Assembly (NCBI GenBank): GCA_005116945.1
Contig: SWDH01000028.1
Coordinates: forward strand, 83,158-137,880
Reading direction: 5' to 3'
DNA length: 54,723 nucleotides
Source of the DNA: Nitrospira sp.
GTDB lineage: Bacteria; Nitrospirota; Nitrospiria; Nitrospirales; Nitrospiraceae
Under the pieces are notes generated by a model, which was given only the letters and a program-made list of their open reading frames with translations, ran no database searches and was not told the DNA's origin. The translations under genes were made by a program, and so were the position numbers. Shown here in pieces: positions 39,379-54,723 of the stretch. Position 1 is the first letter of the stretch. Every line of letters starts with the position of its first letter.

Positions 39379-39484
39379 GATACGGTATCGTAGGGGATCG
39401 TGTGAGAAAAACCAAGGTCACGGTCGCCTGTTTCATACAAGATGAGTTGAACGACGCCGATGTCTCTGCCAGGATAGCGATACG

Positions 39485-40951
39485 ATGCCCGATCATTTGA
39501 GTCCTCATCAGGACGAACTCGCAGAACTCGCGCTGAAACGCGTGGTGGCCTCCGGAGCCGACTACGGCGATATCCGACTTCTCGACAGCACGACCCAGAC
39601 GATTCGCGGCGAAGACCGCCGCATCGCGTCCATTCGAGAGGCGCAGGACAGCGGGTTCGGAATCCGCGTCCTCTATCATGGCGCCTGGGGCTTTGCGGCC
39701 AGCTCGGTACTGTCACTGGAAGAAGCCCCGCGCGTGGCTGACTTGGCGATCGACATTGCCAAAGGCTCCGCATCCCTTGCACGTGAACGGGTAAAACTCG
39801 CCGATGAGCCGGTCCATCGAGACCGGATCGTGACCGCAAGGCGAATCGATCCATTTGCCGTGCCCCTCGACAAGAAAACGGCGCTGCTCCTCGAAACCAT
39901 GGAGTCTGTGCATCGTCAACCCGGCATTGTGCGGAGCAGTGCCAGCCTGTGGGCTCGTCGCGACCGTAAGCTGTTTGTCTCAACCGAAGGGGCGCGCCTG
40001 GAATTCGACCTCCTGGCCCTGAGCGGCGATTTCGATGCCACAGCAATTCATAACGGACGATTTGCCTCGCGAAGCTTCAATACACCGCATCTTCGGATGG
40101 GCTATGAATTGATCGACGACGCCAATTTCCTTGCCGTGGCCCCACGCATCGCGTCTGAAGCCGTTGAGAAGGTGAAGGCGCCGGCCATAGATCCCGGACA
40201 GTACGATCTCGTCCTCGACCCGGAACATCTGTCGCTCACCATGCACGAATCCTGCGGCCATCCGAGCGAACTCGATCGTGCGCTGGGGTACGAGGCTAAC
40301 TATGCCGGCACCAGCTTTTTGACGACCGACACACAAGGAACCTTCCGATACGGCTCCTCGCACGTCAATCTCGTGGCCGATAACTGCGAACCTGAGACCC
40401 TCGCTGCCACCAGCTACGACGACGATGGCGTGACCTGCCAGCAGTGGGACATTGTGCGCGATGGGATCTTCGTCGGCTATTGTACGAACCGTGAGGTCGC
40501 CCCCAAAATCGGCGAGACGCGCTCGCGCGGCTCCAATCGCGCAGACAGCTGGGGTAGCGTCCCGATCGTGCGTATTGCCAACATTGGACTTGAGCCAGGC
40601 TCCGCCACCCTCGACGAGCTGCTCGCCGATATCACACGGGGTATCTACATCGAAGGCCACGGATCCTACAGTATCGATCAACGACGGTATAATTTTCAGT
40701 TCGGTGGCGATGCATTTTGGCTGATCGAGAATGGAAAGCGGACCCACATGGTTCGCGATGTTGTCTATCATGGAATCACGCCGGAGTTCTGGGGCAGCTG
40801 CGACGGAGTCGCCGATCGGTCGCACCGCCGAAAATATGGATTCATTACGTGTGGAAAAGGTCAGCCGGCCCAGTCGGGCTGGATGACCCACGCGGCCTCC
40901 CATGCGCGGTTTCGCAAGGTCAACGTCATCGGAGGGCAGGCGGGTTCATGA
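39485..40951 (+). CDS. tldD: metalloprotease TldD
   Basis: The protein has 488 residues. The zinc motif HExxxH is seen as His254-Glu255 and His259 in TMHESCGHPSE, followed by YAGTSFLT. The N-terminus has GADYGDIRLLDSTTQTIRGED-like strands, and the late GSYSIDQRRYNFQFGG matches the family. TldD forms a heterodimer with TldE that degrades unfolded peptides and matures peptide antibiotics in E. coli. The stop overlaps the tldE start (ATGA), so equal production is ensured. No substrate peptide gene is evident nearby. Confidence 0.95.
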   Translation: MPDHLSPHQDELAELALKRVVASGADYGDIRLLDSTTQTIRGEDRRIASIREAQDSGFGIRVLYHGAWGFAASSVLSLEEAPRVADLAIDIAKGSASLARERVKLADEPVHRDRIVTARRIDPFAVPLDKKTALLLETMESVHRQPGIVRSSASLWARRDRKLFVSTEGARLEFDLLALSGDFDATAIHNGRFASRSFNTPHLRMGYELIDDANFLAVAPRIASEAVEKVKAPAIDPGQYDLVLDPEHLSLTMHESCGHPSELDRALGYEANYAGTSFLTTDTQGTFRYGSSHVNLVADNCEPETLAATSYDDDGVTCQQWDIVRDGIFVGYCTNREVAPKIGETRSRGSNRADSWGSVPIVRIANIGLEPGSATLDELLADITRGIYIEGHGSYSIDQRRYNFQFGGDAFWLIENGKRTHMVRDVVYHGITPEFWGSCDGVADRSHRRKYGFITCGKGQPAQSGWMTHAASHARFRKVNVIGGQAGS

Positions 40952-42291
40952 GTACGACGAGTCACAAGACGTGGCCAAAGTTGACGAGCCAGGAGGAATT
41001 CCGATTCCTTATGGAGTTGGTGCTGAACCGTTCGACCGGCGATCACACGCTGATATCGTTGCATGATCAGCACAGTGGGACGACGCGGTTTGCGAACAAT
41101 CAGATCGTCCAGAACGTCGACATGAGGCGTGGGTCTTTGAGTGTGACGGTGGCATTCGGACAGCGGCACGGCACCGCAAGCACCACAGACTTTACCGCAG
41201 GAAAGGTACAAGAGGCTGTCGCCAGAGCGACGCACATCGCAGAGCGATCACCGGACGATCCGGAATACCTCCCGCCGGTGGGACCACAACACTATGCAAC
41301 GACTCCTACCGCACGACCCGAAACTGCCTTCGCAGGGCCGTCCCGCCGGCTGGAATATACCAGCGAAGCGATCGGGCAATGCCGGATGGAAAATCTGGGC
41401 GCAGCAGGAATCGTGTCGTCATCGATGGCGACAGTCGGCGTGGCCGCAAGCACTGGACTCTTTGCCCATGAAGCACGGACCGATGCACGATTCAGCCTGA
41501 CGGTTCAGACCGGCGACGCCACCGGATGGAGCGCCGCCGCTCATCGGTCCATCGATCATCTGAAGATCCAGGAGCGGACACTCACCGCGATCGATAAAGC
41601 CAAGCGGGGCCTGGAGGTGCGCGAGCTGCCGCCGGATCGCTATACCGTCATTCTTGAGCCGGCTGCCGTCGCAGGACTGTGGTATTCGCTCCTCTGGGCA
41701 CTCGACGCGAAATCGTACGAGAAAAATACGAGTGCATTGTCGGGAAAATTAGGCCGACAGATCGTCGACACACGACTGACGTTTCGTAATATGCCGTCGC
41801 ACGAGGACCTCCTCGGTATGGGATTCACCCAAGATGGGCTGCCTACCGTGGCATCCGACTGGATTACCGACGGAGTGCTCACACAGCTTTCCTACGATCG
41901 GTTCACGGCGAAGGCGCGGGGAATCGATCACATTCCCACGCTCGATGCCCCACGCCTCTCAGCCAGTGGGTCACCCTTGCCGACGCTACAGGACATGATC
42001 AAGCACACGGAGCGCGCCATCCTCGTGACAAACTTTTGGTACATCAGAACGGTCAATCCGACCGATCTCACTCTCACCGGCATGACGAGAGATGGCACGT
42101 TTCTCGTCGAGAATGGGGCCATTGTATCGGGGGTGAAAAACTTTCGCTTTCACGAAAGCCCGCTACGAGTGTTCAACCGGATCGAGGCTTTCACCAATCC
42201 CACTGAAGCCATCACGTCCGAAACAGGCAAGCTCCTCGTGCCGGCGATGAGACTCAGCGACTTCAATTTTTCCAGTGTCACTCGATTCTAA
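40948..42291 (+). CDS. tldE: TldE/PmbA-family protease subunit
   Basis: The protein has 447 residues from ATG 40948, overlapping the tldD stop by 4 bases. The longer frame to 40717 shadows tldD. Family features are TRFANNQIVQNVDMRRGSLSV (read as strands), the middle LEPAAVAGLWYSLL, and LTGMTRDGTFLVENGAIVSG near the end. The HExxxH site is absent, as expected for TldE. It pairs with TldD to close the proteolytic chamber. It is somewhat divergent from E. coli PmbA, closer to other two-gene TldD/E sets. Confidence 0.93.
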   Translation: MSTTSHKTWPKLTSQEEFRFLMELVLNRSTGDHTLISLHDQHSGTTRFANNQIVQNVDMRRGSLSVTVAFGQRHGTASTTDFTAGKVQEAVARATHIAERSPDDPEYLPPVGPQHYATTPTARPETAFAGPSRRLEYTSEAIGQCRMENLGAAGIVSSSMATVGVAASTGLFAHEARTDARFSLTVQTGDATGWSAAAHRSIDHLKIQERTLTAIDKAKRGLEVRELPPDRYTVILEPAAVAGLWYSLLWALDAKSYEKNTSALSGKLGRQIVDTRLTFRNMPSHEDLLGMGFTQDGLPTVASDWITDGVLTQLSYDRFTAKARGIDHIPTLDAPRLSASGSPLPTLQDMIKHTERAILVTNFWYIRTVNPTDLTLTGMTRDGTFLVENGAIVSGVKNFRFHESPLRVFNRIEAFTNPTEAITSETGKLLVPAMRLSDFNFSSVTRF

Positions 42292-42375
42292 CGTTCGTCA
42301 GCCATGAGGGATACTTTCCCATCCATTTGTTGACTCGAGGGGAACTCACGGGTAGACAAGAGACGGGGGACATAC

Positions 42376-42753
42376 ATGGATATGATGAAATGGTGCCTGT
42401 TGACTGTGCTAGGAGTGAGTCTGTCCGTGGCCGGTTGCAACGGGACGAGAACGTCGGGGCAAGAGGACCTTGGGCAAGGGATCGTGCGGGGGACGCTTGG
42501 CGCCCAATTGGCCGACGATGGGCACCTCCCCATTCCACCACATGTCGCGGTGTTAACCGGCCAGGTGACAGCGGTGGAGGGCGGCGCCTATGTGATTCGA
42601 GAGGCCAGCGGCATCGAGCAGCGGGTGGCACATGACGAGAATACTCGAATCGATCGGCCCGCTCATGTCGGGGACCGAATTGAAGCCTATATCGATCACA
42701 AAGGGCGTGCGGTACTTATTCAGAACATTGAGCAGCGCGAACGAGTGCGGTAA
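42376..42753 (+). CDS. small putative lipoprotein with beta-rich domain
   Basis: The protein has 125 residues. A signal peptide ends SLSVAGC with the lipidated cysteine near residue 21. The mature part (VAVLTGQVTAVEGGAYVIRE, RVAHDENTRIDRPAHVGDRIEAYID, GRAVLIQNIEQ) looks like a small OB or SH3-type barrel similar to DUF5666-like proteins. It starts 84 bases after tldE and is followed at once by the TPR protein gene, so the two may be co-transcribed. The function is not known. Confidence 0.7.
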   Translation: MDMMKWCLLTVLGVSLSVAGCNGTRTSGQEDLGQGIVRGTLGAQLADDGHLPIPPHVAVLTGQVTAVEGGAYVIREASGIEQRVAHDENTRIDRPAHVGDRIEAYIDHKGRAVLIQNIEQRERVR

Positions 42754-42781
42754 ATCAAGCCCAGGACGGAGAACGTTTTTC

Positions 42782-44440
42782 ATGCAGGTGGGGGGAGGAT
42801 CGATGGTTGCCACGCGCTTGGCGATAGGTATCGCCTCTTGCCTCATGCTGAGTTCACCGTCGCACGCGACGCCTCCCGATCAGGCCGATGCTCCGCCGCT
42901 CTTCGATAATCTCGGCTCCCTCCACCACCCCATCACCACCACATCGGAACAGGCCCAACGGTATTTCGATCAAGGGCTCCAACTCGTGTACGCCTTCAAC
43001 CATGAAGAGGCGATCCGGTCGTTTGAGGCGGCAATCCAACAGGATCCGCAGGCAGCGATGCCCTATTGGGGGGTGGCACTGGCACTCGGCCCCAACATCA
43101 ATAGCACCATGGGGAAGAACGCCGAACATCGGGCCATTGACATGATCCAGAAAGCTCGACGACTGGCCGACCACACCAGGCCCGAAGAACAAGCCTACAT
43201 CGAGGCGTTGGCCGCACGGTATGTGAGTCGGAAAGCCTCCAAGCGCAAAGGACTCGATGAAGCCTACGCGAAGGCCATGCGATCGGTGGTGCAACGGTTC
43301 CCGGAAGACGATAATGCAGCCACGCTGTTTGCGGAAGCGCTGATGGATTTGCGTCCTTGGGATTTTTGGAAACCGGATGGACAACCGCAGCCTGGCACAG
43401 TCGAGATCGTCGCGACGCTCGAGTCCGTGCTCGCACGAAACCCCGATCATCCCGGGGCCTGCCACTACTATCTGCATGCGATCGAGGCGTCACTGCAACC
43501 GGAACTGGCCTTGCCTTGCGCGGAGCGGCTGCCGCGCCTCATGCCTGGCGCTGGCCATCTCGTCCATATGCCCGCGCACATTTACATGCGGATGGGAAAG
43601 TACCACGAAGCGGCGGAGCAGAATCAACAAGCCGCCCACGTCGATGAGCAATACTTGGCTGATCAACATCCAACCGGCGAATACGCCGACGGCTATTACA
43701 CGCACAATCTTCATTTTCTTTGGGCATCCTTGGCAATGGAAGGGCGTAGCGTCGACGCCTTGAAGGTGGCTCGCGATTTGACGGCGACGATCACAGAGGA
43801 GGAAGCCCGCAAAGACCGCGGGAAGGAGCTCTATTTACCAACGCCGATCTTTTCGATGATTCGCTTTGGCCGGTGGGACGAGTTGCTCAGGGAACCCCCA
43901 CCACCCAAGGGATTGCGCTTATTGGAAGGGATGTGGAGGCTGGGGCGAGGGCTCGCTCTCGTTGCGACGGGCCGACTCCCTGGAGCTGAGGGTGAACACG
44001 TCGTCCTTGCCGGCCTGACAAAACAGATCCGCCGCCATCGCGCGACGGAAGAAAAGACCGAACGGGCACTGCTCAAAATTGCTGAACGGGTCCTGTCAGG
44101 AGAGATTGCCGCCCGTCGCCAACACTACGATGACGCGGTTCGGCTGTTCGAGGAAGCGATCAGGATAGAAGAGGGGCTGCCATACTCGGAGCCGCCGCTC
44201 TGGCCATTGTCCGTGCGGCACCACTTGGGGGCGGTGCTCTTATCGGCCCATCGCCTATCTGAGGCTGAAGCGGTCTATCGTACGGACCTTCTGCGGCAGC
44301 CGGACAACGGCTGGGCACTGATCGGATTGATCCAGAGCCTCAAGGCCCAACGGAAGGACGACCTCGCGGAGGAGGCCGAAGATCGTTTCAAGAAGGCCTG
44401 GGCCCATGCCGACTTCGTTCCTGCTGCGTCTCGAATGTAA
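42782..44440 (+). CDS. exported TPR-repeat protein
   Basis: The protein has 552 residues from ATG 42782; Met8 (ATG 42803) is an alternative start. A signal peptide (RLAIGIASCLMLSSPSHA) leads into TPR helices: TSEQAQRYFDQGLQLVYAFN, EEAIRSFEAAIQQDPQAAMPYWGVALALG. More units run to the end (HHLGAVLLSAHRLSEAEAVY). The middle has HYYLHAIEAS and HMPAHIYMRMGKYHEAA, motifs common in a widespread family of exported TPR proteins. It is probably periplasmic and binds other proteins. No enzyme motif is seen. Confidence 0.8.
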   Translation: MQVGGGSMVATRLAIGIASCLMLSSPSHATPPDQADAPPLFDNLGSLHHPITTTSEQAQRYFDQGLQLVYAFNHEEAIRSFEAAIQQDPQAAMPYWGVALALGPNINSTMGKNAEHRAIDMIQKARRLADHTRPEEQAYIEALAARYVSRKASKRKGLDEAYAKAMRSVVQRFPEDDNAATLFAEALMDLRPWDFWKPDGQPQPGTVEIVATLESVLARNPDHPGACHYYLHAIEASLQPELALPCAERLPRLMPGAGHLVHMPAHIYMRMGKYHEAAEQNQQAAHVDEQYLADQHPTGEYADGYYTHNLHFLWASLAMEGRSVDALKVARDLTATITEEEARKDRGKELYLPTPIFSMIRFGRWDELLREPPPPKGLRLLEGMWRLGRGLALVATGRLPGAEGEHVVLAGLTKQIRRHRATEEKTERALLKIAERVLSGEIAARRQHYDDAVRLFEEAIRIEEGLPYSEPPLWPLSVRHHLGAVLLSAHRLSEAEAVYRTDLLRQPDNGWALIGLIQSLKAQRKDDLAEEAEDRFKKAWAHADFVPAASRM

Positions 44441-44447
44441 CAGGCTC

Positions 44448-44918
44448 CTAGGGAGTGGGTGCGCCGGATAGCTGGCCTTTTTCGAGAAGGATGCCGGAGT
44501 TGTCGAAGGACATGCGACCGTCTTTCAGGTGAAGCCGCCCCGTGATGTCGTACGAAAGGTCTTGCGCCTCGGAAAAGCTGAGAAGCTGACGTACCACGTC
44601 GAGCGTCGAGGTGCTGGTCTGAACTGAGACGACGGTGTCGCTGAGTCGGGGGACTGTGATGGCGGTGTTGCCCAATCCTCGGGCCAGCCGTTTCCCGTTG
44701 AGGTTGAGGGTAAAGTCGATGCCCGTCGCGAGCAAATCGAAATCGTTTGGATTGCGGATACGGAGGTCCACTTGCAATCGTTGTTCGAACGCGGTTCCTT
44801 CTAAGGGTGTGATATTCGTGACGAGCACCTCCGGCGGTTCGCCTTTCATCAGCCAAGACGCGCACCCGACCAGAGTGACGAGGAACAGGCACGCGAGGGA
44901 ATGGCCAATGGTCCGCAT
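44448..44918 (-). CDS. LEA14-like (type 2 LEA/WHy) lipoprotein
   Basis: The protein has 156 residues. A signal peptide ends FLVTLVGC (Cys19). Then comes a water-stress-hypersensitive (WHy) type fold: VLVTNITPLEGTAFEQRLQVDLRIRNPNDFDL (in two strands), FTLNLNGKRLARGLGNTAITVPRLSD, YDITGRLHLKDG. The phrase 'R.RNPND.DL' is a hallmark of LEA14 proteins. It is a membrane-anchored periplasmic protein of uncertain role, possibly protective under stress. It converges with the TPR gene, with 7 bases between the stop codons. Confidence 0.82.
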   Translation of the reverse strand: MRTIGHSLACLFLVTLVGCASWLMKGEPPEVLVTNITPLEGTAFEQRLQVDLRIRNPNDFDLLATGIDFTLNLNGKRLARGLGNTAITVPRLSDTVVSVQTSTSTLDVVRQLLSFSEAQDLSYDITGRLHLKDGRMSFDNSGILLEKGQLSGAPTP

Positions 44919-45018
44919 TGTGCCGGATCATACAGGAACGTCCAAAGCAGCGCCATGCCCGTAGAGCGTGTAAGAGTTCATCGCGCTATTCGACTGAATC
45001 AGTGAGGAGGGCCGTATC

Positions 45019-45648
45019 ATGAAAAGACAAGCTGCTCTATCCATTTTTGCCGTGACGGTGTTTCTCATCGGAGCCTGGAGTTTCGACAGTGTCCACACGA
45101 CCAGCCAGGCTGCGACAGATGCGGCTCCCGGCAAAGCCTATTTCGCGGGAGGATGTTTTTGGTGCATGGAAGAAGCCTTCGAGAAGGTTGACGGGGTGTC
45201 GTCTGTAATCTCGGGATACATGGGGGGAACGGTCGCCAATCCGAGTTATGAGGCAGTATCCGCTGGACGAACGGGACATGCGGAAGCGGTCGAAGTGGTC
45301 TATGACCCGGCCAAAGTGAGCTACCAGAAGCTGTTGGATGCCTTTTGGCTGAACATTGATCCGGTCACGCCGAACGCACAGTTCTGCGACCACGGCAACC
45401 AATATCGCTCCGCCATTTTCTTTCAGACCGATGGAGAAAAACGTGCGTCGGAGACCTCCAAACAGTCGATCGAGCAATTGAAGCGATTTCAAGAACCGAT
45501 CGTCACGCAGATTGTGATGGCCTCGCAGTTTTACCCAGCCGAGGAATACCATCAAGATTTCTACAAAAAGAACCCCATCCGCTACAAATACTACAAATAT
45601 AATTGCGGCCGCGCCCAGCGATTGGACGCGTTGTGGGGAAAACCATAG
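45019..45648 (+). CDS. msrA: peptide methionine sulfoxide reductase MsrA, exported
   Basis: The protein has 209 residues. An N-terminal hydrophobic segment (LSIFAVTVFLIGAWSF) is a signal peptide or anchor, so the enzyme works in the periplasm. YFAGGCFWCMEEAFEKVDGV holds catalytic Cys46. YMGGTVANPSYEAVSAGRTGHAEAV and FWLNIDPVTPNAQFCDHGNQYRSAIF (read as separate motifs) are family signatures. A C-terminal Cys196 (NCGRAQ) is a likely resolving residue. It reduces methionine-S-sulfoxide in proteins damaged by oxidants. A GAGGAGGG ribosome site precedes the ATG. Confidence 0.94.
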   Translation: MKRQAALSIFAVTVFLIGAWSFDSVHTTSQAATDAAPGKAYFAGGCFWCMEEAFEKVDGVSSVISGYMGGTVANPSYEAVSAGRTGHAEAVEVVYDPAKVSYQKLLDAFWLNIDPVTPNAQFCDHGNQYRSAIFFQTDGEKRASETSKQSIEQLKRFQEPIVTQIVMASQFYPAEEYHQDFYKKNPIRYKYYKYNCGRAQRLDALWGKP

Positions 45649-45742
45649 CGTAGAACCCGCAACCTTACGATCATCGGGCCGTTCGCAAGAATCCCGCGAC
45701 AAGCCTCACGCCCTCAGTGTATATTTCCATTCCAAGCAATCG

Positions 45743-46288
45743 GTGCCGATATCTTTCCCCAGTGAGGTCCGCTCTGTGAAAAATCCCCCTATCCGACAGT
45801 CGACCAGAAAACCAGTGATCGGTGTCATGGGTCCAGCCAAGGCTGGCGCCCAGGAATTGACTGATGCGAAAACGTTGGGAGAGCTCATCGCACGTCAGGG
45901 ATGGGTGGTGTTGACTGGAGGGCGTGCGAGCGGTGTGATGGACGCGGCCAGTGAAGGAGCGAAGTCGGTGCCAGGCAGCCTGACGATCGGAATTCTTCCG
46001 GATGGCAAAGCACGGGTGTCTCGATATGTGGACGTGGCGATCGTCACGGACCTGGGTCAGGCACGCAACAACGTGAACGTGATGTCCAGCGATATTATCG
46101 TGGCCTGTGGGCTCGGCGGTACCGGAACGGTCTCAGAAGTTGCGCTGGCGCTGAAGGCCAAGAAGATCGTGATTCTGTTGGGGGCCGACAAGGACGGGGT
46201 GGGTCTCTTCAAAAGTCTCGCACCGCATCTTGTGTATGCCGCAGCCTCGCCAGAAGAGGCAGTGAAGCTGATCGGTGACCTGCTCTAA
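45743..46288 (+). CDS. TIGR00725/LOG-like nucleotide-binding protein
   Basis: The protein has 181 residues. Near the N-terminus is VIGVMGPAKAGAQELTDA, then WVVLTGGRASGVMDAASEGAKSV and CGLGGTGTVSEVALALKAKK. This is the PGGxGTxxE-type motif of lysine-decarboxylase-like/LOG Rossmann proteins. LOG enzymes release the base from nucleoside monophosphates; TIGR00725 members are uncharacterised relatives. The start is uncertain; an internal GTG (45776) is possible. It lies alone downstream of msrA. Confidence 0.85.
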   Translation: MPISFPSEVRSVKNPPIRQSTRKPVIGVMGPAKAGAQELTDAKTLGELIARQGWVVLTGGRASGVMDAASEGAKSVPGSLTIGILPDGKARVSRYVDVAIVTDLGQARNNVNVMSSDIIVACGLGGTGTVSEVALALKAKKIVILLGADKDGVGLFKSLAPHLVYAAASPEEAVKLIGDLL

Positions 46289-46401
46289 CCCGATTCCGCC
46301 TTCTCCGGCACCGCAACCTGATTCCCGGATAGATCTGCAGCAAACACCCCTAGAAACGGATAGGTCGAACGGGTGAGAGAGTCACTCTCTACCGCGTCCT
46401 G

Positions 46402-46770
46402 CTAGAGATTGGCCTTCATAATGATAGCTCGAACTCGTTCACGCTGGGCCGGTCTAATCCCGGTAAACTCGAGACCGAACATTCCACCGTTGACCCACCG
46501 CACCAGGGCTTCATCGATGCGCAGAGGCCATTTCTGGTCGTGAAGAAACAGGGATAGGCGGAGCGTCATGCCGACGTGCAGCAGGATAAGAGACTTTGCC
46601 TGACAACCGTTCGTGGAAAGATCGATGACCGTCGCCTCGCCCTCAAAGTCATCCTCTCCAAAAAAGAATAGGCGGCAACCCAGACTGAGGCGGCGACCCC
46701 GACGTTCCGCCATCGCGGCCTCGTGGTCTGGGCTTGGAGCACTGGTGGACATGGAATCTTTCGCTGCCAC
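46402..46770 (-). CDS. PilZ-domain protein
   Basis: The protein has 122 residues and starts with GTG; an ATG 18 bases later is an alternative. ERRGRRLSLGCRLFFFG corresponds to the RxxxR part. VIDLSTNGCQAKS is the D-x-S-x-x-G part of the c-di-GMP site. RLSLFLHDQKWPLRIDEALVRWVNGGMFGLEF (in strands) completes the barrel, and a helix (RERVRAIIMKA) ends it. It is a single-domain c-di-GMP receptor. The 430 bases upstream to the zinc-ribbon gene show no gene that I can support. Confidence 0.8.
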   Translation of the reverse strand: MAAKDSMSTSAPSPDHEAAMAERRGRRLSLGCRLFFFGEDDFEGEATVIDLSTNGCQAKSLILLHVGMTLRLSLFLHDQKWPLRIDEALVRWVNGGMFGLEFTGIRPAQRERVRAIIMKANL

Positions 46771-47202
46771 GGACTACATCCTTTCCCTCGATCAGCTAGA
46801 AAAGAATTTCATCGACCGTGAAGGTTCGCACAGAGCGACTTGTCGACCCACGTTCCTCACGAGGAGCAATCCCAAAAAAAAGTCAAGAGGATCCTGCTCG
46901 CAGTATAACCAATTCAATCATGTATGGAACGAAAACCTCGTAATCTGCATCGAGTTCGAACCGACCGCTATCAGCGTCAGAGTAGAAAGAGGGTTTGAAC
47001 TATCTGGAATCCATCTGCGACGAGAGGGACTTGACGATTGAGACGTGATACGCCGAAGGAACAATGCGTTACTCAGCGAATGGCCGTATTGGCCCATTCG
47101 GAAATTCGAGCAATGATTCATGCTCGTCACAGGCGATGCGGCATGGAGGGACGTCTAGTCGCAATTCGATGGATCGGCCGGACGCCTATACCTACTCCCC
47201 GT
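46771..47202. other. intergenic region without recognisable gene
   Basis: About 430 bases between two minus-strand genes. Plus-strand frames at 46613-47041 and 47064-47255 have a composition unlike proteins, and no ribosome site was noticed. Presumably it includes the PilZ promoter. Confidence 0.35.
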
Positions 47203-47382
47203 TCAATGGCCCATCTTGGGGCCGGCAGCGTTGTCTCCCTGCGAGACAAGCGTGAAACGAACGGTTGATCCGCATTGAGGGCACTTTGCACGGATGGTTC
47301 CCTCATTCAGCTGTTCATACTGGTCTTCTTTCAACCACATCAGCTGTGCGCACTTAGGGCAGGTTCGTACTTGCGTTGCCAT
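47203..47382 (-). CDS. small zinc-ribbon protein
   Basis: The 59-residue frame is too short for a usual cut-off. Two CxxC knuckles (Cys8/Cys11 in RTCPKCAQ and Cys34/Cys37 in AKCPQCGS) are spaced for a zinc ribbon. Between them is MWLKEDQYEQLNEGTIR, a typical short loop. Similar tiny proteins are common; their role is unknown, perhaps RNA or DNA binding. It is divergent from the GNAT gene, and its stop codon lies well before the region without genes. Confidence 0.75.
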   Translation of the reverse strand: MATQVRTCPKCAQLMWLKEDQYEQLNEGTIRAKCPQCGSTVRFTLVSQGDNAAGPKMGH

Positions 47383-47443
47383 GATGTTCCTCGTACACTT
47401 CGTATCACGTAGTTGCTGTCGCTGGGAGATAATCTAGTACAAG

Positions 47444-47875
47444 ATGCCCCCTACCCTCAAGCCCGTCATCATCTTTGCTGAAAAGAAGGACCTTGACCCA
47501 GCCAAACTCGTTCGCCTCTACCAGCAAGCACCATGGGCCAAAGGGCGGACACTTCACGATGCACGCGAGATGCTGCGCCACACCGATATCGCTGTGACCG
47601 CATGGGATAGTGACCTGCTGATCGGATTTGGCCGGGTATTAACGGACTATGTCTACAGGGCAACCATCTGGGACGTGATCGTCGATAAGGCCTACCAGGG
47701 TCAGGGCATCGGATCGAATATCGTCCAGCGAATCTTGAACCACCCACGCCTCAAAAAAATTGAACTATTTTGGCTTTGCACAAGCCGTCCAGGTTTTTAC
47801 GAAAAACTGGGGTTCAGCTCCAAAGAACAGACCGGCATGGTCTGGTCGCGCACCAACCACTCTCGCCTCGAATAA
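47444..47875 (+). CDS. GNAT-family N-acetyltransferase
   Basis: The protein has 143 residues. The acetyl-CoA motif A is seen as VIVDKAYQGQGIGSNIVQRIL (Q-x-x-G-x-G/A), preceded by WDSDLLIGFGRVLTD and followed by LFWLCTSRPGFYEKLGFSSKE, in which the tyrosine after the last strand is the usual general acid. It transfers an acetyl group to an amine in a small molecule or protein. The substrate is unknown. It is a single gene. Confidence 0.88.
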   Translation: MPPTLKPVIIFAEKKDLDPAKLVRLYQQAPWAKGRTLHDAREMLRHTDIAVTAWDSDLLIGFGRVLTDYVYRATIWDVIVDKAYQGQGIGSNIVQRILNHPRLKKIELFWLCTSRPGFYEKLGFSSKEQTGMVWSRTNHSRLE

Positions 47876-48130
47876 TCCGATCGTTTCTTATTCTCTCCGT
47901 ACAAGAATGCATGGAACATCTGGCGACTTGCCCAAGGCCTGACAGTGAAGCCCGCTGAGCGCGAGATGTACATTGCAGTCCTGCCAGGAGAAGGGTGTCA
48001 ACGCTCTGCCATTGATGAGACCCACGACATTCCGTCGCTGCGATGGTCTTGGCGAGGGTGTGGGGAGACCAAAGCAATTTGTCACCGCATCGAGCAGACG
48101 CTAGATGCGGTGACAGACAGAATCCTGAAG

Positions 48131-48763
48131 TTAGAAGGTGTAGCGAACACCGACTAAGAGACTGATTGAGGACGCGTCGACCGAGCCGGCATCTTGATTA
48201 TTGATTTCGAGCCCACCCCGGTTCCGTTTCCACGCTGCTTCCGTATTCAGCATGAGATTCTGTGTCAGCGGGAAATCCAACCCGCCCGCTAGTCGATAGG
48301 CAAAGGTGTTGGACGGGCTGATATTCACCGCATTATTGTCCTCACTGAATGAATTCACATTCACACCGATACTCGTCGAGAGATAGGGTGTGACCCCTGA
48401 GAAATGTCCTGGGCGAAACTCCATCGTCGGTAATAGTGAGATGGTGTTCAACGTACCGAGGTCGACATTTGGATTGCGATTGTTAATCGATCGACGCTCC
48501 CACTCCATCATGAAGCCGACGCGAATCCACTTACTAATTCCGTACATGGCCTGAAGATTGAATGGTGTTGGACCAACGCTGGTCTTCGTATCTGCGGCCC
48601 AACTTTGCGTCGGGATATTGAAGCCGGTCCGAGCCCCGAGGGTCCATTTGCCTTCATTGGCTTGCCCCTCATGCACCCATTCGGCCTGGGCAGAACCAAC
48701 CGAGCACCACCCCAGAACCGCGAGCAATGCACCAACACCAACTACGAGATGTCTTGTACGCAT
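48131..48763 (-). CDS. outer-membrane beta-barrel protein
   Basis: The protein has 210 residues. A signal peptide (VVGVGALLAVLGWCSVGSAQA) is followed by alternating amphipathic strands (GKWTLGARTGFNIP; YGISKWIRVGFMMEWE; YLSTSIGVNVNSF). It ends in SLLVGVRYTF, with the terminal Phe that the BAM complex recognises. The size suggests an 8-10 stranded barrel of the OmpW/Opa-like kind. A role in transport or adhesion cannot be told. It follows the LpxC-ZnuB gene on the same strand after 292 bases, which show no gene. Confidence 0.8.
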   Translation of the reverse strand: MRTRHLVVGVGALLAVLGWCSVGSAQAEWVHEGQANEGKWTLGARTGFNIPTQSWAADTKTSVGPTPFNLQAMYGISKWIRVGFMMEWERRSINNRNPNVDLGTLNTISLLPTMEFRPGHFSGVTPYLSTSIGVNVNSFSEDNNAVNISPSNTFAYRLAGGLDFPLTQNLMLNTEAAWKRNRGGLEINNQDAGSVDASSISLLVGVRYTF

Positions 48764-49055
48764 CGATACACTCCTCCTTGATACAGTGAATGGCTGCGTT
48801 AATAAAAAATCTTTCGAAAAACTTTCCGCCGCTGGAAACTACCGCCGATGATAGGCCTCACATTGAGCAAGTCCTATGCCTTGCGACATCATGTTCTGAG
48901 GTAATCCTCCTTCCATAACAATCAGCCGATTCTGAGATTTCTGCATCAACCCAGAACATGGCCAGTACCATATTGTGCCTTAGGAGGCTACGACTGACTC
49001 GTGAATGACACAGTTGTTGCACGCAAAACCCTATAGTCAAGTTGAAATGAGGAAT

Positions 49056-50504
49056 CTAGTGCACGTGAGCACGAGTAGGAGATTTCATTCTTTTAGGGGA
49101 GAGCAACACCGAAACAAAGAACACGGTCGTAGCGAGAAGGACGATCGCCGGCCCCGAAGGCACATCCCAGGCGGCAGAAATCAACACTCCTGCGACAGAC
49201 GTCGTGATGCCGATGATGACCGAATAGAGGGTAAGTGTCATGAGGCTGGACGTGAGTTGGTACGCGGTGGAGGCAGGAATCAATATCATGGCAAACACGA
49301 GAATGGCGCCGACAGTTTTCAACGAAACGACGACCGTGAGCGCGACCAGCGTGAGCAGAAGAAAAAACATGCGTCGCGCTGGAACGCCGGAGGCCTCGGC
49401 CATCTCTTGATCGAACGCGATAAAGTAGAGTTCCTTCGAAAACAAGAGAATGAGACCGAGCACCAGGATGCTCAACCCGCCGATGATTTGCAGCTCTTCA
49501 CTCGTGACCGACAGTACGCTGCCGAATAAATAGCCGTACACTTCCGCGTTATACCCTTTCATGAGACCGATGAAGAGAATGGCCAGCGCCATCGTGGTGG
49601 TGTAGAGAATGCCGATCGAGACGTCCAGCTTCATCCGGCCTTTTTCTTCGACCCAGCCTGTGATCCACACGGTGGCAAGACCGAAGATGATCGCCAGCCC
49701 CAACGGCGGCCAGCCCATGAGGTAGCCCAGCGCCACGCCGGCAAAAGCCGCATGCGACGTCCCCGCCCCGACAAATGCTCCGATCAAGTCCAGGATCTTG
49801 TGTCGCACAAATTCATTCGCAAAGCGAAGACCTGATTCATTGAGAATGCCATCTTGAGAAAGAACGATCGTATTCTCTAAGTTGCCGCCTTGGCCAAGCC
49901 CGCGAGCCCATAGGGCTTCCACTTCTTGCAAAAACCCGAATGTCCTGGCATTCGCGATCTCGTGCTCAAACGCATGGGCAGAGTGCTCATAGACGTAGGT
50001 CTGAGTCTGGATCAACGGGTGATTGTAATGAATGGAGTAGGTGATCTTGGCAGTCGAAGAGGGCTCGATGCGAACTCGACGAGCTCCATCCACAACTTCG
50101 AGAGGCCTTGTGATCTTCAGATAGGGTTGCCGCCTGCCCTGGGACGCAATTCCAGCTGACCGAATCAAGCGAACAAAGTGTGCGGCACTGCCGTCCATGG
50201 CAGGCGCCTCACCTGCATTCAGCTCCACATAAGCGTTATCGACATTGAGCCCGGCTAAGGCTGCCAAGACGTGCTCAATCGTCTTGACCTGGAAACCATT
50301 ACCACTAATAGCGGTGCAGAGCTCAGTAGGTACCACATGCTTGATAGAAGCCGCGAGGGAGGCTCCGTTGTGGCCATTTCGGTTGATGAAAACGACGCCT
50401 GTACTGATAGGCGCAGGCTTCAGCGTGAGGGTGACCGGCTGTCCAGAGTGGAGCCCAACTCCTGTACAACTCACTGCATTCGCTAATGTTTGCTGAGTTC
50501 TCAC
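49056..50504 (-). CDS. in-frame chimera: LpxC N-terminal two-thirds fused to ZnuB-type ABC permease
   Basis: The protein has 482 residues, with GTG start and a GGAG site 7 bases before. Residues 1-242 are LpxC, the zinc UDP-3-O-acyl-GlcNAc deacetylase of lipid A synthesis: QQTLANAVSCTGVGLHSG, Glu77-His78 in TIEHVLAALAGL, and His235/Asp239 in VRHKILDLIG. The chain switches at residue 243 to FVGAGTSHAAFAGVALGYLMG and continues as a ZnuB/MntB-like permease with about six helices. LpxC thus loses its last part, including the catalytic Asp and His after HKILD. The permease loses its first helices. Neither half is complete, so normal activity is unlikely. No znuA or znuC is adjacent. It could be a real deletion fusion, a new protein or an assembly join. 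Confidence 0.9.
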   Translation of the reverse strand: MRTQQTLANAVSCTGVGLHSGQPVTLTLKPAPISTGVVFINRNGHNGASLAASIKHVVPTELCTAISGNGFQVKTIEHVLAALAGLNVDNAYVELNAGEAPAMDGSAAHFVRLIRSAGIASQGRRQPYLKITRPLEVVDGARRVRIEPSSTAKITYSIHYNHPLIQTQTYVYEHSAHAFEHEIANARTFGFLQEVEALWARGLGQGGNLENTIVLSQDGILNESGLRFANEFVRHKILDLIGAFVGAGTSHAAFAGVALGYLMGWPPLGLAIIFGLATVWITGWVEEKGRMKLDVSIGILYTTTMALAILFIGLMKGYNAEVYGYLFGSVLSVTSEELQIIGGLSILVLGLILLFSKELYFIAFDQEMAEASGVPARRMFFLLLTLVALTVVVSLKTVGAILVFAMILIPASTAYQLTSSLMTLTLYSVIIGITTSVAGVLISAAWDVPSGPAIVLLATTVFFVSVLLSPKRMKSPTRAHVH

Positions 50505-50830
50505 ACCATTACTCCAATTAACACATGGTCGTTATAAGCAACAGGCATGCCAGTTTGCAGTATCGGGATAAACGAACGTATGTATTTGAAAATACAATAT
50601 AAGTTACCTTGCATGTCGATATGCTCTCATGTTGTAAAAACACGACACCTGTGACTTTTCAAGGATTATTGAATCGAATTGACCATCTTTACCCATGATA
50701 AGTCAGGACGAGCCAACAATCGCTCACGGGCTCTGTGTGGTCAGCAAGATCACGAGGCAATCCATCGGTTCAGGCGGAACGGGCAAGTCAGTTGCGGGAC
50801 AAACTCGTGTCCACTCAGCAGCTTAAACAA
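50505..50830. other. intergenic region upstream of the lpxC-znuB chimera
   Basis: The 326 bases are AT-richer than their surroundings. A small palindrome GTATT-TGAA-AATAC lies near 50583. No Zur-type operator or clear promoter was recognised, and there is no gene. Confidence 0.4.
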
Positions 50831-51502
50831 CTATGGCCGTGGATCTAACTCAATAAGTCCTTTCCGTATGGCCAGGATCGCCGCTTGCGTGCGGTCGTAT
50901 ACTTGTAACTTATGAAAAATGTTGCGCACATGATTCTTGACGGTCTTTTCGCTCAGGTCCAAGTTATTGGCGATTTCCTTGTTCGTCTTGCCATCTGCGA
51001 CCAAGCGTAAGACGGTAATCTCTCGTTCCGTCAGGTCGTGCTCGACCCATCCAGGCTTTTTCCCCTTCTTCTGGGACATCAAGGAAAACTCCGCCAAGAT
51101 CTTACTCGCGACGGATGGATGGATCAGTGACTCGCCTTTATAGATCGCACGAATCGCGGCGACGATCTGGGAGGACTCGGAATCTTTCAAGAGATATCCC
51201 GTGGCGCCGGCACGCACCAAATCAAAGATATATTGTTGCTCGTCATACATAGTCAGCGCCACGATTCCGATGTGAGGAAACTCACGCTTGATTTGCCTGC
51301 TCGCTTCGACTCCGCCCATCCGTGGCATGCTCACATCCATTAGCACAACGTCGGGGAGCAACGTCCTCACCTTCTCGACTGCTTCCATACCATCCTGAGC
51401 CTCACCGACAATATGAATGTCGTCTTTCGTCTTGAGAATTGCGGCCAATCCTTCGCGCACAACGCGATGATCGTCCGCGATGAGCACCTTAATTTTCTCC
51501 AT
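50831..51502 (-). CDS. NarL/LuxR-family response regulator
   Basis: The protein has 223 residues. The receiver domain has KIKVLIADDHRVVREGL and phospho-acceptor Asp56 in VVLMDVSMPRMGG, and ends with GYLLKDSES. The C-terminal LuxR-type helix-turn-helix is LTEREITVLRLVADGKTNKE, then IANNLDLSEKTVKNHVRNIF. It is the partner of the kinase whose gene overlaps its start by 14 bases. Phosphorylation should dimerise it and change transcription of unknown targets. The gene after it on this strand is the lpxC-znuB chimera, 326 bases away. Confidence 0.94.
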   Translation of the reverse strand: MEKIKVLIADDHRVVREGLAAILKTKDDIHIVGEAQDGMEAVEKVRTLLPDVVLMDVSMPRMGGVEASRQIKREFPHIGIVALTMYDEQQYIFDLVRAGATGYLLKDSESSQIVAAIRAIYKGESLIHPSVASKILAEFSLMSQKKGKKPGWVEHDLTEREITVLRLVADGKTNKEIANNLDLSEKTVKNHVRNIFHKLQVYDRTQAAILAIRKGLIELDPRP

Positions 51503-52601
51503 GGGATATCATCTCCTTTTTCGCCAGGGGAATGTCGACGACGATGGTCGTGCCACGCCCTTTCTTAGACTCGATCTTGGCTTCACCACCCACGAGTCGA
51601 GCCCGCTCCATGATTCCGCGAATCCCAAAATGGTCCCATTTATTGGGATCGCGCAGCACGGTATCCATATCGAATCCCACGCCGTTGTCCTTGATGGTGA
51701 CCTTGAGACGTTCAGGGTCGATATCCAGACCCACAGTGACTCGAGTCGCTTTCGCGTGCCGCTCCACGTTGCTCAGCGCCTCTTGCACAATGCGAAAGAG
51801 AAAGATCTTGGTACGCGGGAACAAAATCTGTTCATCGCCGGAAACGCGGAACTGCGTCTTGATATGGTACTGGGTCTCATACGAGGTGAGATAGTTGGTC
51901 AGGGCCGGAAACAGCTCCATCTTGTCGTAGTGGAGAGGACGAAGATTGAAGATGACCTGCCTCGCTTCCTGGATGGCCAGCTTCAGCTGGGCTTTACTCT
52001 CCCGCACGGTGGCCAGGCCGACTTTCGGGCTTTTTCGAATCTGTTGCAGACTCAAATCCAGCTTGAAATTCACCCCAGCTAAGTTCTGCACAAGGCCGTC
52101 GTGCATCTCACAGGCAATGCGTGTCCGTTCCTCTGTGACTGCCACACCTGTCTCCTTGACATACAATCGATAGAGCGATTGGTATTTGTTCAAGGTTTTT
52201 TCGATCTCTGCCGTGGCGCGGATGCGGGCTTCGATGAGTTCCCACATAAATTTTGCGCTGGCTCCGCCGATAATCGTGACACCCATCCGATGGAAATCCT
52301 GGAGCAACTCCCAGACCTTTGCGTTACCAGACACGTCGATAATGAGATCGACGCGCTCAAGGTCCAACAGTCGCCGGTAATCACGAGTCACAGGGATCCC
52401 AAGCCGTTTCGCTAGTGCGACGCCCGGAGCATTGACTTGGATCTCGGCTACACACACGATTTTGACCAGTGGGTCTGTCGCAAAGATCTCGATCAGCGCC
52501 TTGCCGCCGCGGCCTGCGCCGATGATCGCCACATGCGTACCGCTTGGCGCTCCGGTCTTGCGTAGTTGCTTAGGAGACTTGGGTTCGATTGTCGGAATCA
52601 T
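51489..52601 (-). CDS. NarX-type histidine kinase with N-terminal Rossmann domain
   Basis: The protein has 370 residues. Residues 20-125 form a nucleotide-binding Rossmann fold: HVAIIGAGRGGKALIEIFAT (GxGxxG at 28-33), VCVAEIQVNAPGVALAKRLG, VDLIIDVSGNAKVWELL. Residues 158-235 are HisKA_3, with His167 in RIACEMHDGLVQNLAG. The ATPase domain follows (LFRIVQEALSNVERHAKAT; DNGVGFD; FGIRGIMERARLVGG). There is no membrane helix, so the sensor domain is cytoplasmic and may read NAD(P)H or a related metabolite. It forms an operon with the NarL-like regulator. Confidence 0.92.
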   Translation of the reverse strand: MIPTIEPKSPKQLRKTGAPSGTHVAIIGAGRGGKALIEIFATDPLVKIVCVAEIQVNAPGVALAKRLGIPVTRDYRRLLDLERVDLIIDVSGNAKVWELLQDFHRMGVTIIGGASAKFMWELIEARIRATAEIEKTLNKYQSLYRLYVKETGVAVTEERTRIACEMHDGLVQNLAGVNFKLDLSLQQIRKSPKVGLATVRESKAQLKLAIQEARQVIFNLRPLHYDKMELFPALTNYLTSYETQYHIKTQFRVSGDEQILFPRTKIFLFRIVQEALSNVERHAKATRVTVGLDIDPERLKVTIKDNGVGFDMDTVLRDPNKWDHFGIRGIMERARLVGGEAKIESKKGRGTTIVVDIPLAKKEMISHGEN

Positions 52602-53168
52602 GACGCGTACTCTCAGAGTCAGTCAGCCGAAGTCTTCGCTCGGGCTCCAGGTGTTGCACTTCAACCTTGAATTCAAGAGCGTCTGCATTCAAGATCCTCG
52701 CGCAACAGGTGGTGAAAGGCATGAGCCGGACCGTGACAGCTCGGAGCCTTTCGCGACCGATCGTTGAGCGTCGCTGCAACCGCTTGATCTCGCGCCGAGC
52801 GAGTCGATTGAACTGGGTGCCTGAGGGAAAGAATTGGCGCGGCGGTCTGTCGTTGATAGGTAGAGGACTGTTCGAGCCGAGAACGGAGTTGGGAGTCTTT
52901 TTCAGAGGCTCCAGAGGTTGCCAAAAATTTCCGGCAGCAAGCCTGCAGGGAGTGGGACGACTGAGGCGTAACTTTCTCATCCGCCCAACCTTGAGCTGTC
53001 GCAACAGCTCTATTCCCCTATGGACCCTGCCAGGTGGAGTTAGTCGCACGAGAGGCACATGGGGTCCTAGAGGGCGTTGTGTGCCCGTGCTTCGCCCATC
53101 CCTCGAGGAGTTCAGCCTCCTTGGGTCAGTTGACAGGATCAGCGAGTCACGCACACATCTCGAAAAGC
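52602..53168. repeat. gene-free region with degenerate type B repeat
   Basis: Between the kinase and the NAGPA-type gene no real gene is seen. At 52871-53015 there are type B words (GAGCCGAGAACGGAGTTGGGAG, read in parts; GGACGACTGAGGCGTAAC) and the inserted CTCATCCGCCCAACC...GAGCTG...CAGCTC hairpin also present near 13260. The open frames here on both strands are products of this sequence. Confidence 0.5.
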
Positions 53169-54071
53169 TCATCTGTCCGTAGTCTTGGCGCCGGGTTGTT
53201 CGCGGCGCGGGCTGATCCCGATGACGGCTGGGAGTCCAATGTGAGTGGTGAGGCTGCCTTCTAGCAGGGGGATCCAGCTGTGTGCACCGGCCATCTTCGA
53301 CGTGGCTTCCCGGAGGTAGGGGCTCACGGCAACGTCGGAAGAGGATCCTCCATCCATGGCCATGACCTGGCGTAGGGAGGGATAGACATCCCGCAAACAT
53401 TCCCCAAGGGCATAGAGTGACGCCGCCTCCGTGGTCTTCAGGACGAGGAGATGCCCATCGCCTTGTTCTGCGACGAGTGTCTGCTGTGCGCGTTTCCCGG
53501 TTTGGCGCACACGGACTTTGCCGGTTCGGTCGAGGAGCATGAGCGATTGCGCGACTTCTCGATAGGGAATGTGCTGTTCGTCAAAGGTGTCGAAGGTCAA
53601 GTCCAATACCCTTGCGCGTCGCAATGAATGATCCGCCGCCGGCTCTGCCGCAAACAGTCCCAGCCAGGTCGAGTGACGCTTGCTTCCCAACGAGCGTCCG
53701 TTTCCATAGAGCAGCCCGAGATACGCATAATTCTCACGGAAGAGCCCGGCATTGAAGATCAGATCGTGGCCTGTTTGTTCTTGCCACTCTCGAATATCAG
53801 GCGGTTCCGAGAGACCGTGTTGCTGGTAGTGATGCACAGTAAAACGATAGCGGTCGGGATCGATCTCGACCGCGACCAATGGCGCGACATCGGGGCACTG
53901 TGTGTGGGGATCCCACACCGAAATGGATAAACCGTTTCCGAGTCGATCCCCCGTGAGGGTCTGACCCGATGACATCGATGGTCCGCCGAGCATGACGAAG
54001 ATAATACCCAGTAGAGGCAGGGCGACAGAGGTGAAAGAGAGAGACCGGTAGAAGCTGTTGTCTTGTACCAT
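53169..54071 (-). CDS. exported NAGPA/phosphodiester-glycosidase-family protein (DUF2233-like)
   Basis: The protein has 300 residues. An N-terminal hydrophobic segment (LSFTSVALPLLGIIFVMLGG) acts as signal. The family's marks are VAVEIDPDRYRFTVHHY, DLIFNAGLF, NGRSLGSKRHSTWLGLF and, near the end, QVMAMDGGSSSDVAV. The last is the typical DGGxSS motif of the phosphodiester glycosidase (uncovering enzyme) domain. Bacterial members hydrolyse sugar-phosphate diesters outside the cytoplasm; the true substrate is unknown. It is a single gene on the minus strand, preceded by a stretch with nine G in a row (54170-54178). Confidence 0.85.
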   Translation of the reverse strand: MVQDNSFYRSLSFTSVALPLLGIIFVMLGGPSMSSGQTLTGDRLGNGLSISVWDPHTQCPDVAPLVAVEIDPDRYRFTVHHYQQHGLSEPPDIREWQEQTGHDLIFNAGLFRENYAYLGLLYGNGRSLGSKRHSTWLGLFAAEPAADHSLRRARVLDLTFDTFDEQHIPYREVAQSLMLLDRTGKVRVRQTGKRAQQTLVAEQGDGHLLVLKTTEAASLYALGECLRDVYPSLRQVMAMDGGSSSDVAVSPYLREATSKMAGAHSWIPLLEGSLTTHIGLPAVIGISPRREQPGAKTTDR

Positions 54072-54261
54072 AGTGTCTCAGGGCCGAGTATAGAGGGAGC
54101 CTATCTGTAGCGTCAAATCAGCCGAAGAGGTAGCGCTTCGACTACGACGGTGTCTTGCGTGGTTCGTGTGGGGGGGGGTACACAGTGACAACACATGATC
54201 CGAGCCCTTGCCGGCCACGACCTGTCGGGATGCGACACATCGGTCCTCAACCGGGCCTTCG

Positions 54262-54723
54262 TCACACGCTTGCAGGAACGTGACCGCGCTGGTCAGAGCC
54301 CTCGGGTGGCGGTTCGTTGATCACGCCCCAAAACACACCAAGTTCTTTCACGGCGGTGATGAACTGGTGAAACTCGACCGGCTTCACCACATAGGCATTA
54401 GCACCCAACGCATAGCTTTTGGATAAATCGCACTCCTCGCGCGAGGAGGTGAGCATGACGACAGGAATCGGTTTGAGATTCACGTCGCTCTTGATGGTTT
54501 TCAACACTTCGAGCCCATCAACCTTTGGCATCTTGAGGTCCAGAAATACGACCGCGGGATTACCCTGCTGCCTGGAGGAAAAGATTCCGCGGCAATAGAG
54601 ATAGTCGAGGACTTCAGCTCCATCGTGGCAGACCACCACTTTGTCGGCGATGTGATGTTCTTCCATGGCGGCCATCGCGAGCTCGGCGTCACGCGGATTA
54701 TCTTCGGCAAGCAGGATGGGCTT
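54262..54723 (-). CDS. single-domain response regulator, 5' end cut by window edge
   Basis: A frame of 153 codons is open to the right edge, so only a few N-terminal residues are missing. KPILLAEDNPRDAELAM holds the acidic pocket. VVFLDLKMPKVDG carries the phospho-acceptor, and VVMLTSSREECDL and ANAYVVKPVEF the conserved Thr/Ser and Lys. No output domain follows. It resembles the Rcp1-like CheY family that works with bacteriophytochromes and hybrid kinases. Its partner is probably outside the window. Confidence 0.92.
   Translation of the reverse strand, partial: KPILLAEDNPRDAELAMAAMEEHHIADKVVVCHDGAEVLDYLYCRGIFSSRQQGNPAVVFLDLKMPKVDGLEVLKTIKSDVNLKPIPVVMLTSSREECDLSKSYALGANAYVVKPVEFHQFITAVKELGVFWGVINEPPPEGSDQRGHVPASV

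Follow-up and report, generated by a model that had tools for sequence, protein, structure and literature searches.

LpxC (UDP-3-O-acyl-N-acetylglucosamine deacetylase; PF03331, TIGR00325) is required for lipid A synthesis and is essential in most Gram-negative bacteria. A genuine fusion of this enzyme, the bifunctional LpxC-FabZ protein, has been described for Chlorobium (PMC516016) and was the sole LpxC fusion found in our search of the literature. The minus-strand frame 49056-50504 of a draft Nitrospira genome joins LpxC to another partner, a metal permease of the ABC-3 family (ZnuB/MntB type, PF00950). Compared with the LpxC-FabZ model (NF009667), in which the partner is FabZ, the frame scored 217 bits against a cut-off of 465, and the LpxC part alone matched. 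In its surroundings the locus resembles chimeric metagenome contigs, with which it shares joined loose ends, lost flanks, nearby gaps and another chimeric frame elsewhere on the scaffold, but it differs from them in that a long shared repeat is absent at the LpxC-permease join. In all probability, the frame is an assembly artefact in which two unrelated places were glued together, and not a new fusion protein.

The analysed window is a stretch of 54,723 nucleotides (G000:C21:83158-137880) from a genome assembly of 3.39 Mb in 46 scaffolds that is 82% complete. The scaffolds of this assembly contain many gaps of exactly 100 bases and some of exactly 10, and the window corresponds to exactly one piece flanked by two 100-base gaps. 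The frame comprises 482 codons with a GTG start and is free of internal stops. Both NCBIfam and Pfam recognized LpxC followed by a metal ABC permease (ABC-3), and each half was assigned to the same family when searched alone with profiles. The LpxC domain was matched at residues 4-250 (E 5.6e-89, profile positions 1-244 of 268) and the permease domain at residues 243-468 (E 4.8e-62, profile positions 32-257 of 258). DNA comparison with relatives placed the changeover at 49778, where a single base (G) fits both sides. Thus, the sequence-only reading, which had divided the protein into LpxC (residues 1-242) and a zinc/manganese-family permease (residues 243-482) joined at about 49778, described the frame correctly.

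The LpxC part (residues 1-242; 49779-50504, minus strand) matches LpxC throughout and is 95% identical at the DNA level to its counterpart in Nitrospira sp. CG24A. The enzyme has about 310 residues in relatives, and the C-terminal portion of about 70 residues that bears the catalytic Asp and His is lacking from the frame. Comparison with intact relatives and LpxC structures in the PDB showed that the zinc ligands His78, His235 and Asp239 are all present, whereas the catalytic Asp following HKILDLIG has become Ala243 and the histidine of the SGHA motif is gone. The permease part (residues 243-482; 49056-49778, minus strand) lacks the start of its gene. It matches the profile from position 32 to the end and is intact from about residue 41 of the permease on, whereas the intact permease of a relative was matched from position 2; positions 1-258, expected of a full-length permease, are therefore not covered. 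In relatives, the permease gene is preceded by znuA and znuC, and genes for the ATPase and binding protein that should adjoin a ZnuB/MntB permease are present there but not next to the fused frame. All this agrees with the earlier observations that three zinc ligands are kept, that the catalytic residues after HKILD are lost and that the first permease helices are missing; the permease loss amounts to some 40 N-terminal residues.

A search of related genomes for the same junction had been suggested by the sequence-only reading as a check, and here its outcome was negative. The fused copy occurs in none of the 60 related genomes, in which the LpxC and permease halves match separate places, and is likewise absent from the 75 loci fetched from genome contigs. 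When searched as a degenerate pattern, the junction peptide DLIGAFVGAGT matched this genome only (1 of 32 in the genus, 0 of 31 congeners). A junction recurring in independent genomes, as expected of a genuine fusion, was hence seen neither among the 60 relatives nor among the 31 congeners. A possible second fusion in G035, the one relative whose permease lies in a long open frame (490 codons), turned out to be an ordinary znuA-znuC-permease row.

The two halves have their closest matches in different metagenome-assembled genomes, LpxC in Nitrospira sp. CG24A (G028; 99% protein identity) and the permease in Nitrospira RSF6 (G007; 96% identity). These and the other closest matches assign the organism to Nitrospira. 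DNA that is about 93-95% identical to these two close relatives changes locus exactly at the join, and collinearity with their contigs switches at 49770-49778. On one side, the znu-neighbourhood arm (39443-49778) is collinear with positions 32659-22623 of G028:C19 (CG24A contig NEWT02000026) and with G007:C18. On the other side, a 2.85-kb island carrying lpxC, a response regulator and a histidine kinase gene (49770-52623) is collinear with G028:C28 89682-92534 (NEWT02000034) and with G007:C3. As G007 and G028 are mutually collinear at both the lpxC and the znu locus, the departure belongs to the present assembly. Together with the response regulator and histidine kinase genes that precede it, lpxC (window 49770-52606) forms a conserved neighbourhood in Nitrospira relatives, and the histidine kinase has an apparent N-terminal dinucleotide-binding domain. 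Two further synteny breaks lie at window position 39443 and near 120.4 kb of C19. Both breaks were considered as extra chimeras and set aside, as CG24A has a 100-base gap of its own there (G028:C19:32736-32835), at which its order differs from that of the present genome; the break at 39443 may be an error of CG24A.

In several congeners, lpxC and the permease gene are only about 7 kb apart and on opposite strands, an arrangement from which a simple inversion could produce the fusion together with its mirror image. This was rejected because the genes sit on different contigs in the nearest relatives and the assembly lacks the mirror pieces, the permease start and the LpxC end. Collapse of a repeat at the junction itself (49770-49780, minus strand) was rejected as well. 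The parental sequences have one base in common, no repeat spanning the junction was found within the window stretch, and the exact 16-mers across it had no second occurrence in the 0.6 Mb of genome compared.

The sequences cut off at the junction are missing from the assembly. Following the lpxC break, 1043 bases are absent, among them the LpxC C-terminus and a further stretch of about 0.85 kb, and the region downstream of lpxC in relatives resumes at C40:73073, the first base past a 100-base gap. Upstream of the permease, relatives carry znuC, znuA and further genes. Here, znuA, znuC and the permease start were not found in the assembly, and the sequence that precedes znuA resumes after 6359 missing bases at C19:140923, again the first base past a 100-base gap. 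Each missing stretch is therefore bounded by a scaffold gap at one end and by the junction at the other, and what adjoins both genes in relatives is found here on three scaffolds, C19, C21 and C40, and lacks its adjoining parts. A synteny switch at the join combined with cut parts that are either absent or stop at scaffold gaps is the pattern expected of an assembly chimera. The complete lpxC and znuABC that the sequence-only reading would have sought elsewhere in the genome are not in this 82% complete assembly: it contains no other LpxC, neither znuA nor znuC and, besides the fused frame, one weak ABC-3 match. LpxA is present at full length.

The lpxC island is disturbed at its opposite end, too. 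Its match to relatives stops at 52623, and directly adjacent lies a second join, a 55-bp exact inverted copy (52624-52678) of a neighbouring contig end (G000:C21:83002-83056). A length of 55 bp is typical of assembler k-mers and might tie the join to a particular assembler. After a stretch without match follows an arm (53171-54723) collinear with G028:C28 6930-8480, which is about 81 kb from lpxC in G028; it extends to the end of the window at a 100-base gap. In relatives, the row of lpxC, response regulator and histidine kinase genes is flanked by three genes (G028:C28:92535-96251) that, from their translations, we take to be nrdR, glyA and rplI. All three are absent from the draft genome, and this flank of the island picks up again at C21:226994. 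There, on the same scaffold, an in-frame chimera (G000:C21:226177-227268) joined without N consists of AmoC (PF04896) and, after it, a Dna2-like helicase (PF13086) reduced to its C-terminal part; the intact form of this helicase is found in G028:C28. The AmoC-helicase join lies at the amoC 3′ end, a repeat with three copies on scaffold C21.

An assembly chimera accounts for nearly every one of these observations, and a plausible course of events can be outlined. The real genome would contain a complete lpxC of about 310 codons downstream of the histidine kinase and response regulator genes, and a complete permease gene behind znuA and znuC. The assembly would have lost about 1 kb past the lpxC break and about 6.4 kb ahead of the permease break, and the two loose ends would then have been joined during metagenome assembly, the frame staying open by chance, which should happen in about one in three cases. 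One point speaks against such a chimera. The join contains neither a run of N nor a long shared repeat, the overlap being one base, so that plain repeat collapse fails to explain it, and a few reads or k-mers spanning it, at least, would be required by an assembler. We infer that the join would find no support in reads of the true genome, and we likewise infer the exact assembler step behind it. Of the two origins offered by the sequence-only reading, an assembly error is thus favoured by synteny and the missing flanks, while a simple deletion joining a second lpxC to a znu locus is not supported, as the assembly has no second lpxC and the flanks are distributed over C19, C21 and C40.

An open frame of 482 codons and a join free of N would also suit a true recent rearrangement in one Nitrospira lineage, in which illegitimate joining, resembled by the one-base overlap, left a truncated permease with a non-functional LpxC domain attached. 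Lipid A synthesis would then be sustained by an intact lpxC elsewhere, unassembled or unbinned, and in a genome that is 82% complete a second copy could be missing; similarly, both cut flanks could have been lost from a truly rearranged genome if binning was incomplete. Such an event is nevertheless improbable. The junction occurs in no relative, and the same scaffold holds another chimeric frame. One rearrangement would not account for the loss of both cut flanks along with two neighbouring core genes, glyA and rplI. Moreover, the codon differences between the LpxC half and CG24A comprise 15 silent ones and no replacements, a pattern without sign of relaxation. Judged from these counts, the LpxC half has been under strong purifying selection until very recently, as suits an intact gene cut by the assembly. 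Any real fusion would need a rearrangement that is lethal or compensated, and several unrelated flanks would have to be lost in addition. A functional fusion with the LpxC zinc-binding domain working together with the zinc permease, e.g. as a zinc sensor or a zinc-fed enzyme, is scarcely credible despite the retained His78, His235 and Asp239 and a permease intact from about residue 41, as the catalytic Asp and His, the LpxC C-terminus and the permease start are gone, znuA and znuC are neither adjoining nor in the assembly, and a single draft genome carries the frame.

Given an assembly error, the link through zinc between enzyme and permease, to which the sequence-only reading had drawn attention, is a coincidence. 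If the join were true, it would pose a puzzle, namely the destruction of an enzyme that most Gram-negative bacteria cannot do without. As an assembly chimera, the locus is a caution that a chimeric frame open by chance mimics a new fusion protein of a striking kind and will be annotated as one by gene predictors. For this Nitrospira, the draft genome would wrongly seem to be without a working LpxC and ZnuABC.
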